Of a stretch of 64,000 nt of DNA, positions 5,791-62,403 are shown piece by piece; the stretch's first letter is position 1; every line of letters begins with the position of its first letter. Below the pieces are notes generated by a model. It had not been told where the DNA came from. It worked only from the letters and a program-made list of their open reading frames with translations, and did not search any database. The translations under genes were made by a program, and so were the position numbers. The DNA lies in the NCBI RefSeq assembly GCF_010015585.1, contig NW_022985070.1, forward strand, positions 744,001-808,000. Direction: 5' to 3'. This DNA is from Eremomyces bilateralis CBS 781.70. Lineage: Eukaryota > Ascomycota > Dothideomycetes > Eremomycetales > Eremomycetaceae.

Positions 5791-6200
5791 AACGGGGTGT
5801 TGCTTGGAGTGCTGGGGTAATTAGAATGCGGTTCGGATTCCCGGCGTGCACCGCAAGTATAAGAGGGAATTACTATAGTGTCAACAGCTTAAATTTTTGT
5901 TGATCCATCATTACTTACGGAGGTTTGAATTGATCCTCTAGGATACCTACCGAATCATTACATGGCTTGTGTGTTTCTATACATACATGCCTCATCTGAA
6001 ATGACTCAATTGCTGCTGTTCTTGTCCCCTGATACCGTAGCATCACTACCTGGAATCCTGCAACGCCCTCTATTTATGTTAGCCGTTTGTATGAGACCGC
6101 CATCAAAATGATCCAGACTATCGGTTTCCTTCTAGATGCATCGCTCCCCTGCTTGCAGAATGATTCAAGATAGTTCACAATTACTCTCCTGAGCAAAGCA

Positions 6201-38784: not shown

Positions 38785-40449
38785 ATGTCTCAACAACAGA
38801 GCCCTCAATTACCTTCAAATGAAGCTAGAATGAACCTAGCCATCCAGACTATCGAACAAGACCAAGTTCAATCAATTCGAGAAGCTGCAAAAGCTTACAA
38901 CGTCCCGTGGAGTACCTTACGTGACCGCCGCAACGGAATGACTGCACGAAGCGATTGTGTCCCGAATTCGAAAAAGCTCTCAAATATGGAAGAAAGGGTG
39001 ATTATCGACTACTGCCTCGATGTCGACGCGCGCGGATTTCAGCTCAATTACGATATGTTGCGAGATATAGCCAACAAGCTACTCAGCGATCGCGGTCAGG
39101 CTCACGTTGGTATCAATTGGCCTTCAAGATTCGTACAACGCGTTCCAGAGCTCAAAACACGTGTTAATCGAAAGTACGACTATAAAAGAGCCCTGAACGA
39201 AGATCCAGAGATTATTGGCGCGTGGTTTCGCCTCGTACGCAACGTGAAGGCAAAATACGGTATCCTGGATGAAGATACATACAACTTTGATGAAGTTGGC
39301 TTTCAAATGGGCGTAATCGGGACGCGCATGGTCATCACGGGTACCGAACGACGTCAGACTCCAAAAACCTTGCAGCCAGGCAATACAGAATGGGTGACAT
39401 CGATCATTGCTGCCAGCGCGCAAGGTTGGATTGTCCCACCCTTCATCATCTTCAAAAGCGCTCGACATTACAATACCTGGTACGAGGCGATTGCGGATAG
39501 GCCTGATTGGGTTCTATCAGTTAGCGAGAAGGGCTGGACGTCCCTTGAGCATGGATTTGAGTGGTTAAAGCATTTTAATCGCTTCACAGAAGACCGTACG
39601 ACTGGCGCCTATCGGCTTCTGATTATGGATGGCCATAACAGCCATGACACTATCCAATTCCAGGATTTCTGCAAGGACCAGAAGATTATTACTCTCTGCA
39701 TGCCTTCGCATTCATCTCATTTGCTACAACCCCTCGACGTTGGCTGTTTTGGGCCATTAAAGCGCGCGTATAGCAAGGAGATTGAGGACTTTATCCGGTG
39801 CCGCATCAACCACATCACGAAAGAGGACTTTTTACCTGCTTTCAAGACCGCCTTCGAAAAAGCAATTGCTACGGAGAATATCCAGGGCGCCTTCAAAGGC
39901 GCAGGATTAGTGCCTTTCGATCCAGAAGCTGTTATTTCAAAGCTTGATGTCCGATTACAGACCCCGACGCCATTACCAGAGATCACTCAATGGGAGTCGC
40001 AAACACCACGCAACGTCGCTGAAATAAGGTCCCAAACAGAGTACATACGACAGCGCCTTCAAAGAGATCAAAATACCTCCCCAACACCGCTTTTAGAAAG
40101 CTTTTCAAGCCTTGAAAAGGGTGTTCAAATGGTCGCGCACGGAGCTTCAATCATGGAGGTCGAGATAGGAAAGCTTCGGAAGGCAAACGAGACGCTATCA
40201 AAGCGCAAACAACGCAAAAAAAAGGTGCTTAAGGGCGCTAATACGCGCTCAATTACTGATGGGCTTGAATTAGCTGTACAACGTCGGGATCAAGATATAA
40301 TCAGTGAAAATGGTACTTCTAATGACGTTCCCGCAAGGCGCCAGCGACGTTGCGGACGCTGTCGCGAGCCAGGACATCGCGTTGAGACCTGTACAATGCC
40401 TCAATTAGCTATACCAGAAAACGTAGATCCTAGCCTACTTCCTAATTAA
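38785..40449 (+). CDS. Fot1/pogo-like DDE transposase
   Basis: One exon of 554 residues. An N-terminal psq/CENP-B helix-turn-helix is present: SIREAAKAYNVPWSTLRDR. A second CENP-B-type DNA-binding region (VIIDYCLDVDARGFQLNYDM, with RFVQRVPELKTRVNRKYD) follows. The DDE domain has Asp169 in NFDEVGFQMG, Asp282 in LIMDGHNSH and Asp318 in LLQPLDVGCFGPLK. The spacing of 35 residues between the last two gives the DD35D pattern of Fot1/pogo. At the C-terminus, CGRCREPGHRVETC (from residue 523) is a CCHC zinc knuckle, C-x2-C-x4-H-x4-C. The protein excises and reinserts the element at TA sites. All expected residues are present, so it may be functional. Confidence 0.93.
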   Translation: MSQQQSPQLPSNEARMNLAIQTIEQDQVQSIREAAKAYNVPWSTLRDRRNGMTARSDCVPNSKKLSNMEERVIIDYCLDVDARGFQLNYDMLRDIANKLLSDRGQAHVGINWPSRFVQRVPELKTRVNRKYDYKRALNEDPEIIGAWFRLVRNVKAKYGILDEDTYNFDEVGFQMGVIGTRMVITGTERRQTPKTLQPGNTEWVTSIIAASAQGWIVPPFIIFKSARHYNTWYEAIADRPDWVLSVSEKGWTSLEHGFEWLKHFNRFTEDRTTGAYRLLIMDGHNSHDTIQFQDFCKDQKIITLCMPSHSSHLLQPLDVGCFGPLKRAYSKEIEDFIRCRINHITKEDFLPAFKTAFEKAIATENIQGAFKGAGLVPFDPEAVISKLDVRLQTPTPLPEITQWESQTPRNVAEIRSQTEYIRQRLQRDQNTSPTPLLESFSSLEKGVQMVAHGASIMEVEIGKLRKANETLSKRKQRKKKVLKGANTRSITDGLELAVQRRDQDIISENGTSNDVPARRQRRCGRCREPGHRVETCTMPQLAIPENVDPSLLPN

Positions 40450-40506
40450 TAAATTGCTTCAGTAGTTGTTGAGATATTCAGGTTACGGTAGTGGGCCACG
40501 GTTGAG

Positions 40507-40549
40507 GTGGGCGACTCGGTGGTTTGGGCGACTCGCTGGTGGATTACGT
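40507..40549 (-). repeat. Right terminal inverted repeat of transposon
   Basis: It is the exact reverse complement of the left repeat, ending GGATTACGT followed by TA. Confidence 0.93.
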
Positions 40550-40570
40550 TAGTTAAGTTAAGTTAAGTTA
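40549..40570. repeat. Short GTTAA tandem repeat flanking transposon
   Basis: Directly after the right terminal repeat comes GTTAG then about three copies of GTTAA. It may be an outer part of the element end or a pre-existing microsatellite. The remaining bases to 41042 contain the promoter of the SET gene and nothing else recognised. Confidence 0.6.
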
Positions 40571-49111: not shown

Positions 49112-50762
49112 CTAGTAATCCATGAGATCACCATATGACCCATTTGAACCCGCCACGTCCTCCATCGTCATGGCCTGGCCGCCCCTCAGTGCCTCCATGT
49201 GAGGTCCGCGACCTTTGCCAGAGGCGACCACTAGGTTGGCATGCAACATATTCATGCGCATTAACCGCAGCCGCAACGTCCGCTCGTACGACTGAGCCAT
49301 GTCAAGCGCTTGGGCTTGCAGGGCCGATCGGGGATGTGGAGTGGGGGAGATGAGTAGCTGAGGAGCTGTTAGTGTCTCCGTTGGAAAAGTATCGTAGAGA
49401 GGCTTACTCGATCCACCAGGTCTAGCCGTGCCTCCAGAGACCCCCTTTTGATCATGTCCACTAATTCCTCCTCGATTGGTCGCCCATCGGTGGACGGGAA
49501 CCGTGTCTGCATCTCGTCCAGCGTGACCTTATTGAACGGTTTAAAGTACTGCACGATGCTCTTCCGCCGCACCAGTTCGTAGAGCTGGAGCAGATGCGGC
49601 TGCAGGTAGACGTCTAGCAAGTAGTCGTTGCGGTGCGAGTCTAGGATTTCGAGGCAGGCGGAGTAGTTGCAGGAGCAGAAGAGGGAGATGGCCCGACGAA
49701 TGTGCGGTTCCAGTTCCAGGAAATGTCGGAACGTCGCGCTGTCGAGGACCCTCTCTTTGAGCTCTTGGGGGCTCATGGATGCCAGCGCACAGAGACCGCC
49801 GTAGACGGCAATGTCGTTGCCTGTTATCAGCTCTTTCTGAAAGTCGATCCCCGCACGTGGTTCTAGGGCCGTATAAGATTGCGGGGTTGCAATGAAACTC
49901 CTCGCCGCGTCGGCATAGTTCTTCGCGGCGAGTGAGACGAGACCGTTCAAGGGCGGCAGGAGGGCGTCGATAATGTCTTTGTCCTCGGTCGGAAGGGGTT
50001 GAGCGAGGACGCGCTGGATGGCGTTCCCGAGGTGGTGGAGCTGCTTGGTGGCAAGGTGGACCATGGCCAGCTTGAGGAATAGTTCGATTTCATGACGGGC
50101 GGTTTGTCGGAATTCCCGGGCGCGGGCGTATGCTTTCAAGGCACTGCCGAAGTCCCCGATCTGGTACGCGTGGAAGGCGATGTCTTCATTTGCCATCTAC
50201 GCTGCTGTCAGCTGCCTGGCTTTCGAAGCCGCCTGAAATGCCCAGGCCGGAGTGAGTTTCTGAACGCTTACACGAATGCTCTCTCGGATCATGTTGTTCT
50301 TGTACCCTTTCAGCTCCTGATCCAACCGGTCCGATTCCGCCTTCTCCACCAGCTTCGTCCGGGCGACCCAGTCCAGGTCTGTCTCGCTCAGCGGATCTCC
50401 CGGCACGATCTTCTGCAAGATCTCCATGACCTGCATGTAGGCATCCACATCTTTGCCGCGTCGGGCCTCTTCCATCGCCAGTCGGAGCGCATCCAGACAC
50501 AGGCACGTCGACGTGGCGCCGATGGACTTTAACCGGTCGAGTTTTGTTCTTCCTGTGGCGGGATCAGCAACGGCGTCATGTCTGCGTGGAACGGGGTAGC
50601 CGGACCTTGGTAGTTGGAGATGTATGATTCGAGGTCGAATTTGGGAGGTTCTGCGGAGTCTTAGTCAGCGGACGAGCTATTCTATAGCATAGGAGACGTA
50701 CCATGGACAACAACGAGCCCATTTTGGGCGCGGTTATTGAAGAATTCGGAATTGGCAGCCAT
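49112..50762 (-). CDS. csnA: COP9 signalosome subunit 1
   Basis: Five exons, 50762-50702, 50650-50606, 50552-50272, 50196-49408 and 49357-49112, give 473 residues. After KFDLESYISNYQGRTKLDRL comes a TPR-like helical repeat body (LCLDALRLAMEEARRGKD; DIAFHAYQIGDFGSALKAYA), then the PCI winged helix (LYELVRRKSIVQYFKPFNKV, LDEMQTRFP, EEELVDMIKRGSLEARLD). This Rpn7/CSN1 layout, with the short MAANSEFF N-terminus, supports CSN1 rather than the proteasome lid subunit Rpn7. In Aspergillus nidulans the complex deneddylates cullins and controls development and secondary metabolism. The C-terminus ends GSNGSYGDLMDY. It runs tail-to-tail with the rpl22 gene. Confidence 0.9.
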
Positions 50763-51597
50763 GGTGAGTTTGCGGCGATGTCGTGCGGCGGTTGGTAGGT
50801 GCCCGTTCGGACGGCTTAGTCCATAGCTGGTGAGGAATGGTTTGGATTACGAGCTAGGAGGGTTGATCATTCGTAAACTGGTTCCGTTTGGTCCTTCAAA
50901 TTTTCATGCGTTTCCAGCGTGTGTATCAGTGTACAATATGTTCAAGGTACGAGCAAGTGAAGTTATCGTAGTGAAGTTATCATATGGCTGGAGCTCCAGG
51001 TTAAGCAGGAGCTCGGGGTGAGCTTACAGTGTCATGGATGCCTTACCGACTATCGGCTTGATGCCTGAGGCACCAAGGCACCAATAGAGTATAGCACGTG
51101 ATATGACGCAAGTATGGAATTGTTCCATGCGTTCTGGGCTCAGGCACTCTTCACCATCGACAGGCGATATGATTGAAAAGCATGTTTATGGGTTACTGAT
51201 ACAAACTCTATCAATGACTGAGCAGGCCAGTGACCTGCACAAGCCCAACTTTTCCAGTCCTATGGTCATGTCATCGGCATTAGCCATGTAGCCGTCGTCA
51301 AGTCCCCATGTCCCGTAGGCCGTTAATACACCAGACATCCCGTATCGTCAAAGTGGGTGGCCCTTCGTGTTCCTGCCGACCCATATTAAGACCTTCCAAA
51401 CGCCGCAAATGATTCGAATCGACAAATGACACGGGCCGAATGGGCGTGCAATAAAAGCCACCAACCATCCGGCGTTGAATGAAAGTAGACGCGTGACCCA
51501 AGTGGGGTCCGCGTCGTCCCCAAACCCCTTCCCATAAAAGTACAGAACTCATAGCATACAACTGGACCACTTTTCAGAGCATCGGGGATGCATCATC
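50763..51597. other. Intergenic
   Basis: It lies between the csnA start and the 3' end of the C2H2 gene. Only short frames are present, and no repeat or RNA gene was recognised. Confidence 0.55.
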
Positions 51598-54304
51598 TCA
51601 GATCAAGAACGGCGTCGATTCAACGTTGACCAGGTTATCGGGCACCCACGGACCTTTCTCCTCCTCAGTCGCGCCCAGCAGAGCCGATGCACGCTCCAAG
51701 GTTCGGATATCCAGGTCCGTCACGTAGTTCTTGGTATCGAGGTTGACGCGGACCTCGAACTCGCGATCCAACATCATGTCGTCCTTCCATAGTCGACGAG
51801 GGCCGTCGTACACGCAGATGACCCGCTTCTTCATGTTCATACGGTCGACTGGACAACCCCAAGACGTGGGATAGTTCTTTCGCCTCTTGCGGCCGGACGT
51901 CTGCCCCGTGAAGGGTACGCCGCCCTTGCTGAACGTGAGACCGGCGCGGGTTCCAACGTGACCAGTTCCTCTCCCACCAGTGGTCTTGGCGATGCGGTTG
52001 TGAGGGTTGCCACCCCCGACGTGCTGCGAAGGGCCGACACCTCGGGGATGTGCTAATTGTCACATTGGATCTTCTTTCCGGGACCGGATGCCGCCCTTGC
52101 CGGAGCGTGGATCGCTGCTGTTGCCGTCCCCGCTCTCCTCATTGTCCGCATCGTCGTCGTCCTCATCTTCGTACGGGGGAAGGCTGAAGTCCATGCCGTC
52201 TGAAAGTTTATGGCGTGTGAGGGACTCCTTGACATTCTCGTCGTTCTGGACCGACTCGAGGTTCTTCTGGTTGATGGCCTCGCTCGGCTCAATCTGCTGC
52301 ACGACGCGAAGGACACAGTCGTCGAGATGCTCGTAAAACTCCTGGGCGGTCGGGAAGACGATGCTACATGTGGAGCAGGTGCCCGATGTATTGTTTTGAG
52401 GGTTTTGTCCTTTCCTGCCTGGGCTCCTCTTCCGGCTATTGGGTGGGGTTTGTTCCACTCCATGGACCGAAGTCAGATGTCGCTTGAAGACATCGGCGCG
52501 GTTGAAACTCTTCTCCGCTGCGGAACCCGAGCCCGGGCAGAAGCCGCACACCATGGTACCCTTGTAATGGGTCAACGTATGACGGTTCTTGTCATACTTC
52601 CGTGCGAATCCTTTCACGTGGTATTCGCAGGTTTGGATCGGGCACTTCTCGGGCCGCTCGGTTTGGTGGGTCAACATATGGGCCTTGAGGTCCTTGAAGA
52701 CACGACCACAGTCCCCGATCGGGCAAAGCCCCTTGGGGTCCTCCTCGAGATCGGAACGACTTGATCGCGAATGCCTTGACGCCTGTGAGCCAATAGACTG
52801 TCGTCGTGATTCGTTGAAGGTAGGATAGGGCTCGTATCGGTTTCGTGGCGATTGGCTGCCATGGGTAATGTTTCTCGAACTGACCCGAGGGTGGCTATGG
52901 CCCGAATTTTGAGAATAGGCCGGGGAAGGGGGGTGTTCGACGTTGGTGAGATGGGGCGATGCGGTCCCGCCATTGAATCCGGTTGGGTATAAGTAGGGAG
53001 CAGCGAAATGATTGGCGATAAGAGAAGGATCTAAAAGCACGGTCGGAGTTAGCTGCTGCTAAGAGGGTTTGCAAAGCTTCTTCAAGATATATGAAGATCG
53101 ATAAAGCAAGGATAAGGAAAAACCAACAAGAAGACTCCAACGGAGGAACGAAAATGCCGCTGCTTTGATGAAAGAATGGAGATGAAAGAGATTCAGAAGA
53201 CGCAGGAAAGTTGCCCTGGACGGGCTCTACTGCCGCGGATGGGGGCCAAATTTGATGCGAGAGGAGCGAATTTCTTCGAGGAGCCACCGGTGACCCCGCC
53301 ACCGACCTTGGGCCCCCATGTGGTTCCTGCTGTGGCACTTGAGAGCATCGAAGATATGGAGACGCCATCCTGGAGGCTGGGAGGCTTGGAGACTTGAACA
53401 TCCCGCCATCCTGCGATTCGATGGGGGTGACGGTCGACCCGTTTGACCTAGGGATCTCGGTCGGGGTGGTGGCGGTCGGCGACGATGTGTTCTCCAGGAA
53501 AGGGCGGGCAATTGAAGATCTTCTCGGATATCGCAACACAGGCGACTTGAAAGACTCGGAAGAAGAAGGAAAGGCAGAAGACACGCTAAAATGAGACAAC
53601 GAAGGAACTTCAGATGACTCACCCACGCAGCCCGGATCCTTCGGAGCTGCAGCCAGAATGGGACCAGCATCGTAAGAGGAGCTGCTGATGAATGCCTGCG
53701 ACATTGGGAATCCCTCCGCTTGGCTCAAGCCCAGTCCGGCGTATGACCAAGCCTCGAAGGCCGCAGGAAGGGCGGGCGACGGGATCGTCGAGCTGCTAGT
53801 GCTTGAGAGGGACCCGGTCGAGTCGGATGCGGTCGAGAGCCGTGGTGCATTCATGTCCAGCGGCTGGAGAGGAGATTCCGGCGGGCTATACGGATTCTCG
53901 AAGGTCCCGCCCGTTTGCGATGGATCCAGTGGGAAGCGAGCATCGGGGAGTTCGGCCGGGGTGAAGAAAGGCGCCTGCAGGGATTGGAGACTTTCCATGC
54001 TGCTGATGGGGGTGCTGGTAGAAACGGTGTCCAAGTATTGGGCATACGCCGTGTGGGCCGCCGACTGCTCATCGTACAACTGCGCAGTGAAGAAGTCTTG
54101 GTCCGACATGTTTTGAGGGTACATGTAGGATGAGGGCATGTTAGGATTCGTGGATGTGGGACTATCGGTCCGCTTGTCAGCATGGGGATCTTGATCAATA
54201 TCCTGATCGATATCTTGATCGATATCTTGATCGATATCTTGATCGATATCTTGATCGATATCTTGATCGGTATTTTGATCGGTATCCTTATTTGAGTCTG
54301 ACAT
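51598..54304 (-). CDS. C2H2 zinc-finger transcription factor with a conditionally reached C-terminal tail
   Basis: Modelled exons 54304-53128, 53030-52101 and 52052-51598 give 853 residues. The N-terminal half is disordered (Asp-Gln repeat, Ser/Pro-rich). The finger block reads LCPIGDCGRVFKDLKAHMLTH, KCPIQTCEYHVKGFARKYDK (with HTLTH) and MVCGFC with HLTSVH, then TCSTCSIVFPTAQEFYEHLDD. An acidic stretch (PPYEDEDDDDADNEESGDG) follows. The same frame then meets UGA (52062-52060), and coding resumes as AHPRGVGPSQHVGGGNPHNR through RKRRKNYPTSWGC and KKRVICVYDGPRRLWKDDMM to TGA at 51598. A 48-nt GC-AG intron (52100-52053) removes the stop. Alternatively UGA-CAA-UUA is read through. The first intron uses a weak GTTGGT donor. 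The start is at 54304, or the Met four codons earlier. Targets are unknown. Confidence 0.75.
54193..54288. repeat. 12-bp in-frame tandem repeat encoding Asp-Gln-Asp-Ile
   Basis: Eight 12-base units (consensus GATCGATATCTT on the plus strand): five identical, three at the edges changed. Read on the minus strand they encode DQDI repeats near the start of the C2H2 factor. Such arrays vary in copy number by slippage without breaking the frame. Confidence 0.95.
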
Positions 54305-54840
54305 GATTGGGATCATAGATAGGGTCGTATGAGGGGAATAGAAATGGCGCGAAAAGAATGGGCGTGCTTTGTCTGAACTACAAAGTGGAAGGATAAAAAT
54401 GCTTTGTGACAGAGTGAAGATGCTCCTCATCGCGAGGCCAGAAAGATTTATAAGAAACAGGAAACTCACTCTTTCACAACGAAAGGGGGCGCTGGGGGGG
54501 GAGGAGCGAACTGATCAGCGGCGGGATCCAAACGAGGGACTCGCCTTGCACGCCGTCGTCGAGACGATGACCGGGATCGCCCGCCCATTACTTCCCATTC
54601 AGGGTCTCCGGGAGGAGCAAGTGTGGAACAGATGAACAGTGGAAGTCAGGATGCAACTTCGGTAGAATGCAGGACACCAATCACTGGAACGGACAATTGC
54701 ACTCAACCACAACTGTTCTTCTCAGTTCTCCTCAGTGGTACTCGGATTCTTGGGAATTGACACAAACGTGGAAGTGGATAGAAAACCAGGTGCACGTGTT
54801 GCGGAGGTAGAAATTAGTAATAAGGCAGGGACTGTAGCTG

Positions 54841-61100: not shown

Positions 61101-62403
61101 CTTCACTTCAGAGTCGCTGCCGAGGGATAGTTCAGATTCTCAGGATTTCGATCCCAGTCTTGCTTTAGAGTGTCATCAAGCATAAAGCTTCGAAAAGCCC
61201 CCAATGCGGGTCCGAGGGCAGTTGAGCCGCCATATGTGGATTTCAACGGTCTTCTACTGGATCGACATCGTAGCGCCACGGCGTTGGCGGTTGGCTGCTC
61301 GTGCGATTCGATACTTCACCAGGTTCACCTTTGTCACCGTGTGTAGTACTCCACCGCGGTTGGTAAGCTCCGTTCAAAACGAAGTAGAAACATTGACTGA
61401 ACGATTATATCGGTCTCAAATTGGTCAGCAGAGAGTCCCCTCAACTCAATTCCTTCCTCGGACGTTGGGAAGTTCATGGGAATGGAACATTTGAGCATGC
61501 TGTGTACTTTGAGGACTGAGGTACATCCAAATAAACTTTGCCTATTGAATCCCTCGAACCAATAGATATTAGCCAGAAAATCCCTGGATCGGAAAGTCCC
61601 GCCGGATGCTACTGAAGTTCGGTCCCATGGAGCAGTTGGTTAACCGGTTTCATTGGGTTTCGACTTCATTTCAAGCATCTCGACCGTTGACACCAGCGTG
61701 CCCGCCTCACTGCCGTATACTGGTCACATCTAGTATCCTTTAATGCTGGAAGGATTCGGTGTTCACACCACGGCCAGAATTATGAGAGGAAGCCGTCAAT
61801 GATGCATTCAACAACGTCCCAATGGAAGTTTCTGAGTCTGACGCACCCTCTTGGAGCAAATTCTAAAATCTTTTCGGCGGACAGGAACATGTTGCACCCA
61901 AAACATATCTCTGGCTCTCGCCTGATATAATCCTACCGTTTGAGGGAGTCTAGAAGCTTCTTTCGAACGACTCATTATCGGGGAGATGGGTAGGTGGGTA
62001 TCTTGGGAGGTAGTTATTATGGGGCCAGTACCGAACAATCGCGAAGTCGACGATAACACGTTTGTATACTGTTTAGACTTCACCGGTTCACCTTCATCGA
62101 TGATGGTCAACCCCTGGGCTCGATACAGAGCAGAACATCATGATGAGGTGCGTAACCAGACTCCGGAGCATCAATTTTTGACACCCACCCGCCAGTCCAC
62201 CATGGTTCGGAGCTTTGGGTCCATCTACAGATCATTATTCAATCCCTTGGGACTGTCCCTAGCCTTTCGGAAGTAGGACATGAATGACGATCCGTATGTG
62301 ATCCAATGTGGCATGTGACCCCAACCAAGATGACAGAGTACATGTATTCAGAGGGGCTTTGGACTTTGGTACAGAGTACACGGACGGGATCCGAAATGAG
62401 AAT

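Follow-up and report, generated by a model that had tools for sequence, protein, structure and literature searches.

The locus compared with known readthrough systems

The type I readthrough signal is UAG followed by CARYYA, a hexamer that also stimulates readthrough of UGA and UAA (PMC3542737). The type II signal is composed of UGA followed by CGG or CUA, mostly together with a stem-loop that lies some 8 nt further along, and 3' structures typically start at this distance past the stop (PMC3542737). On UGA, the CARYYA hexamer CAAUUA gave approximately 15% readthrough in one mammalian context, where UGA and UAG behaved alike (PMC4132726). The fungal readthrough cases described in PMC4207609 are enzymes of metabolism, and what readthrough adds to them is a signal for peroxisomal targeting.

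The DNA analysed is a window of 64,000 nt of Eremomyces bilateralis CBS 781.70, corresponding to C4:744001-808000 (contig 4) of a genome of 26.6 Mb in 62 contigs; positions are those of the window unless another contig position is named. A gene on its minus strand encodes a C2H2 zinc-finger regulator whose frame is interrupted by UGA-CAA-UUA and continues as a long open tail. The locus has CAA-UUA right after the stop in common with the type I signal of tobamoviruses (UAG-CAA-UUA, PMC3542737), and differs from it in using UGA, in lacking an adenine at -1, in having a predicted hairpin on the 3' side and in belonging to a cellular gene. It shares UGA followed by an extended stem-loop with type II signals, the stem-loop opening here 7 nt downstream, but the triplet after the stop is CAA rather than CGG or CUA (PMC3542737). 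The combination of hexamer and stem-loop is also featured in the benyvirus coat-protein readthrough region, which pairs UAG-CAA-UUA with a compact stem-loop (Table 5 of PMC3542737, citing unpublished data) and differs in being viral and in using UAG. The Drosophila POU factor Vvl/Dfr is likewise a transcription factor with a C-terminal readthrough extension; that extension is shown in vivo and conserved, and the protein is from an animal and belongs to another factor family (PMC8417969). The peroxisomal readthrough genes of Ustilago are likewise fungal cellular genes with UGA, but there the UGA-CU context suffices and peroxisomal targeting signals are added (PMC4207609). A 48-nt intron candidate that overlaps the stop has the GC donor, AG acceptor and short length of fungal GC-AG introns (PMC7072748), but a weak branch site and coding-like content. 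If the inference drawn below is right, the locus would work like known readthrough systems, of which its sequence makes it a candidate member.

The C2H2 gene, its in-frame UGA and the tail

The first exon of the C2H2 gene (about 53128-54316, minus strand) is delimited by its open frame and coding score, and the start is placed by inference at the first ATG, either 54316 or 54304. Coding score was computed with a 3-periodic Markov model. Its training set was 56 long ORFs, the gene itself excluded, drawn from 264 kb of this genome that comprise the window and 200 kb of contig 4. Positions 54300-53140 score +16.8 as coding in the exon's own frame and below zero in both other frames of the strand. 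The translation of the N-terminal part contains Asp-Ile-Asp-Gln seven times in tandem (54179-54262, minus strand). Intron 1 (53031-53127, minus strand) is a GT-AG intron of 97 nt with the branch AGCTAAC and is the top-scoring candidate among those joining the frames, with a site score of 8.8 against 1.4 for the runner-up. Exon 2 (52063-53030, minus strand) comprises the zinc-finger region, an acidic stretch and the end of the short form. The strongest stretch for Pfam zf-C2H2 lies within it at about 52666-52725, and its coding score is +28.5 nats over 53028-52101.

The gene is adjoined by a homologue of COP9 signalosome subunit 1 (49372-50196, minus strand, plus flanking frames), identified by a PDB match at 4.1e-42 and by the Pfam domains RPN7 and PCI. 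An in-frame stop of this homologue at 50199 falls inside a GT-AG candidate scoring 14.1. Further along the window, a DNA transposon at 38785-40551 (plus strand) contains an uninterrupted 554-aa frame with Pfam DDE_1 and HTH_psq and has a 49-base inverted end; we label it pogo-like. A stretch of 1,099 bases from this element has 11 full-length matches in the genome, the window's copy counted, and their 97-100% identity suggests that the transposon has been recently active.

The zinc-finger frame runs into UGA at 52060-52062 on the minus strand, and the hexamer directly 3' of it, CAATTA (52054-52059, minus strand), agrees with CARYYA, both as first described from the sequence. The 3' context is therefore of the leaky kind on two counts, CARYYA and UGA-C. 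On the 5' side, adenines at -1 and -2 are missing and AUG precedes the UGA; such adenines are not obligatory for readthrough. A CARYYA hexamer follows in frame after 29 of 19,705 codons of long ORFs, making it a 0.15% event. The tail frame (51598-52059, minus strand) contains the basic cluster GRKRRKN and ends at the stop 51600-51598. Its length had been given as 151 codons, which holds if counting begins after CAATTA; counted from CAA, there are 153 sense codons plus the stop.

Among the three frames of the minus strand, the whole tail is coding only in the zinc-finger frame, in which 52052-51601 scores +25.7 nats; its two companions give -24.4 and -40.2. Coding-like sequence in the same frame is present on both sides of the stop, and per base the coding likeness of the tail is at least that of exon 2. 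The signal is uneven: two frames score alike over the first 124 nt (4.24 and 4.32), the remainder (51928-51601) is clear at +21.4 against -44.6 and -18.6, and, within the tail, the score of several 36-nt windows is close to zero or negative.

Under fixed thresholds, the 264 kb contain seven loci at which a stop splits coding-like sequence of one frame. A GT-AG candidate scoring at least 12.5 is available at four of the seven, and at two the best candidate scores at most 3.0. CARYYA is present at the C2H2 locus alone, which is also the sole one with a hairpin below -17; its hairpin is the strongest of the set at -29.4, the next being -16.6. On the minus strand of contig C4, stops at 61439 (in L010) and 38584 (in L007) also split coding-like frames, with a best site score of 3.0; these are possibly chance frames or further interrupted genes.

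The predicted hairpin downstream of the stop

A hairpin of 45 nt and 17 bp (52009-52053, minus strand; -27.7 kcal/mol) is predicted to open on the seventh base past the UGA, a feature that the preliminary description had missed. It places an RNA structure close to the distance of about 8 nt that is common, though not universal, in readthrough signals, and it is a possible readthrough stimulator by this modelling. Stem pairs that were tested have a probability of at least 0.99 in five contexts of up to 501 nt. The length of 45 nt was picked after the fold of the 94 nt 3' of the hexamer had been seen, and that longer fold is ordinary overall (z -1.37). A fold of 52125-52030, which spans the stop and cuts the hairpin, is nothing special either (z -0.07).

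The 45-nt window begins 9 nt on, counted from the U of the UGA, and is the most stable of 1383 such windows of the gene. No coding position among 3000 was as stable, nor any of 253 matched for GC, and one of 1000 dinucleotide shuffles of the window reached its stability (z -4.2). Sampling of the 264 kb on both strands every 12 nt, with the hairpin's own window off the grid, gave 3 equally stable windows of 43,842; these represent two places, one being counted on both strands. An equally stable window 6-12 nt on (five offsets) follows 8 of 25,695 ORF codons, at two loci, and none of 36 CARYYA codon sites, where the best value is -19.9. The result depends on window length. With the starting point of the 45-nt window retained, lengths of 40 to 60 nt give similar results (0-2 of 1500), lengths of 70, 80 and 100 nt fall to ranks 20, 13 and 55 among 1500, and at 30 and 36 nt the stability is ordinary. 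Synonymous recodings of the hairpin peptide are equally stable in 0.5% of 5000 cases, or 0.4% of 3000 with matched GC, and among the 133 windows of the gene there is one with a synonymous z more extreme than that of the hairpin. The hairpin is thus rare genome-wide, and less exceptional given its Gly-rich peptide. The notion that a palindromic repeat had been inserted into the gene was unsupported, as a 126-base stretch matched only itself in a genome search that skipped very common words.

Readthrough, the overlapping GC-AG intron and other readings

Splice-site tables were built from 39 introns, which had been identified by their contrast in coding score together with a YTRAY branch. Among 44 GT candidates collected with no demand for a branch, some of them probably false, 17 are without YTRAY (3 with NTRAY only and 14 with no branch). 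Four GT candidates without YTRAY in C4:1-200000 and the window contain CTGAAC near the acceptor, which is perhaps a second branch-site form of this species. As a positive control, 20 kinase regions with stops were hand-picked for strong scores and few stops from the 143 matches listed. In 15 of these, 16 GT-AG candidates at 8.5-16.4 span stops; three of the candidates exceed 120 nt and are less certain, and two of the 15 regions also have stops close to an edge (24 nt at most) that no good intron covers. Of the other five regions, four have a sole stop within 12 nt of the edge and one has a best candidate of 5.4. When TGA was placed at 6000 random ORF codons, a frame-keeping GC candidate of 42-100 nt scoring at least 3.9 was gained in 13.7%, such a candidate with either GT or GC in 44.7% and any candidate scoring at least 9 in 5.5%; an earlier chance model without an inserted TGA gave 36% for any candidate and 10% for GC. 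The 264 kb yielded 26 listed GC-AG candidates, none convincing by eye, and the pattern GTGACAATTAG occurs at 3 places in the genome, which is uninformative.

The reading to which we assign a probability of about one half is that UGA ends a short form and that a fraction of ribosomes reads through it to give a longer one. It is ranked first because the published anatomy of programmed readthrough unites UGA and CARYYA with a stem-loop lying about 8 nt downstream. The alternative judged next, and doubtful, is that a 48-nt GC-AG intron (52053-52100, minus strand) is constitutively spliced, so that the tail is in the sole protein and the UGA never meets a ribosome. The preliminary description had proposed both routes to the tail: the conditional one is strengthened by a hairpin at the published spacing, and the constitutive one is possible and weak by the splice signals of this genome. 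By its letters the intron is as described, with GCAAGG starting at 52100 and AATTAG ending at 52053, a length that keeps the frame and removes the stop; the acceptor had been written with a gap between TGTGAC and AATTAG, which are in fact contiguous (TGTGACAATTAG). The donor GCAAG has A at +3 and +4 and G at +5, the acceptor is YAG, and the strict pattern GCAAG..TRAC..YAG is produced by only 0.23% of TGA placements. Among introns of fungi, 1.009% are of the GC-AG type (Table 1 of PMC7072748). The site scores are 1.1 for the donor, 2.4 for the acceptor and 0.35 for the branch GTGAC, 3.9 in total; a GT in place of the GC would raise this donor to 5.6, a normal value, and about 20% of the 44 GT candidates, some probably false, do no better than this site when the GC penalty is taken into account. 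Against this, splice-site scoring found only weak introns that would remove the stop, and 5 of 172 frame-keeping candidates outscore this one when no length prior is applied. Stops in 15 of the 20 kinase control regions are covered by candidates at 8.5-16.4 compared with 3.9 here, on a scorer that favours GT and YTRAY. The branch is GTGAC, 7 nt from the AG, where YTRAY usually lies at 10-12 nt, and its 0.35 compares with a 5th percentile of 4.0 among training introns; because those introns were selected for YTRAY, this failure is not absolute. The first 38 nt of the intron (52100-52063) are coding-like rather than of non-coding composition, ranking at the 46th percentile among coding windows and at the 94th among intron windows, and the hairpin is left unexplained. 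The two readings mimic each other because UGA-CAA-UUA-G also resembles a minimal branch and acceptor (TGAC..TTAG). If readthrough is real, the intron needs only an in-register GC donor by chance, and GCRAG is found in register at 5.8% of positions (4320 of 74,822). A real intron would bring part of the hexamer with it and would leave the hairpin unaccounted for.

Third in order of judgement, and improbable, is a recent nonsense change or an assembly base error in an uninterrupted exon, by which the gene of this strain would be truncated and the hexamer and hairpin coincidental. A single assembly is available, and coding sequence on both flanks of the stop is what a recent interruption would leave; but the tail is still coding by score, and with a plain nonsense change both hexamer (29/19,705) and hairpin (8/25,695) become independent accidents. 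It is very unlikely that the stop is removed or recoded in some other way. A 246-nt GT-AG candidate (52174-51929) has the top raw site score of 7.4, but the stretch scores +7.0 as coding despite the stop that it contains, and it is long for a genome in which 45 seed introns have a median of 58 nt (search range 40-130 nt). A-to-I stop correction is known in filamentous ascomycetes, where the editing has a strong preference for U at -1 and the correction is described for UAG (PMC11156358); the A of this UGA is preceded by G. Selenocysteine machinery is absent from fungi (PMC4207609), and a search of 50900-52300 against Rfam gave no hit, SECIS included, at E values up to 5.

In the favoured reading, the UGA-CAA-UUA context would weaken termination, and the hairpin, because it opens 7 nt downstream, would meet the mRNA entry side of a ribosome halted on the UGA and could favour a near-cognate tRNA there. 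The residue inserted would likely be Trp, Arg, Cys or Ser, as at other UGA stops (PMC4207609). The long form would have 154 extra residues, with a basic NLS-like cluster and a further region. As this form would gain both, the ratio of the two forms may tune the regulator, making the gene a putative two-form switch. A protein with the tail may carry or miss the segment KGGIRSRKEDPM.

Relatives of the tail and meaning for fungal regulators

Neither the tail nor the zinc-finger query has relatives in the viral (viral_contigs) or prokaryotic (genome_contigs) collections. The tail has no second match in its own genome at E <= 10, and a single zinc-finger stretch at another place in that genome matches at 41% over 54 residues. 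Pfam contains no family for the tail, the PDB returned two chance-level matches (E about 0.4), and single-sequence AlphaFold gave a model with a mean pLDDT of 35.1, which is unusable. A text search with five peptides of the C2H2 protein gave no paper. We presume that C2H2 proteins with a similar tail and no stop are present in other filamentous fungi; if such stop-free tails exist, the stop is lineage-specific, which is compatible with readthrough, intron and nonsense change alike.

Among publications screened by title and the start of the abstract, no report of readthrough in fungal transcription factors was found. By analogy with plant-virus signals, we tentatively propose that a C2H2 regulator of a filamentous fungus has a hybrid of the type I hexamer on UGA and the type II stem-loop that would add a basic region of 153 codons to a fixed share of its protein. 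UGA-CAR-YYA-G resembles a branch site with acceptor, so annotation may conceal readthrough cases as odd introns, and gene finders should treat this sequence with caution. If readthrough is true here, the gene would provide a fungal transcription factor with a translational switch between two forms, the extension being the size of a domain and the signal complete in its two parts, and fungi, like Drosophila, would be able to tune a regulator by translation.
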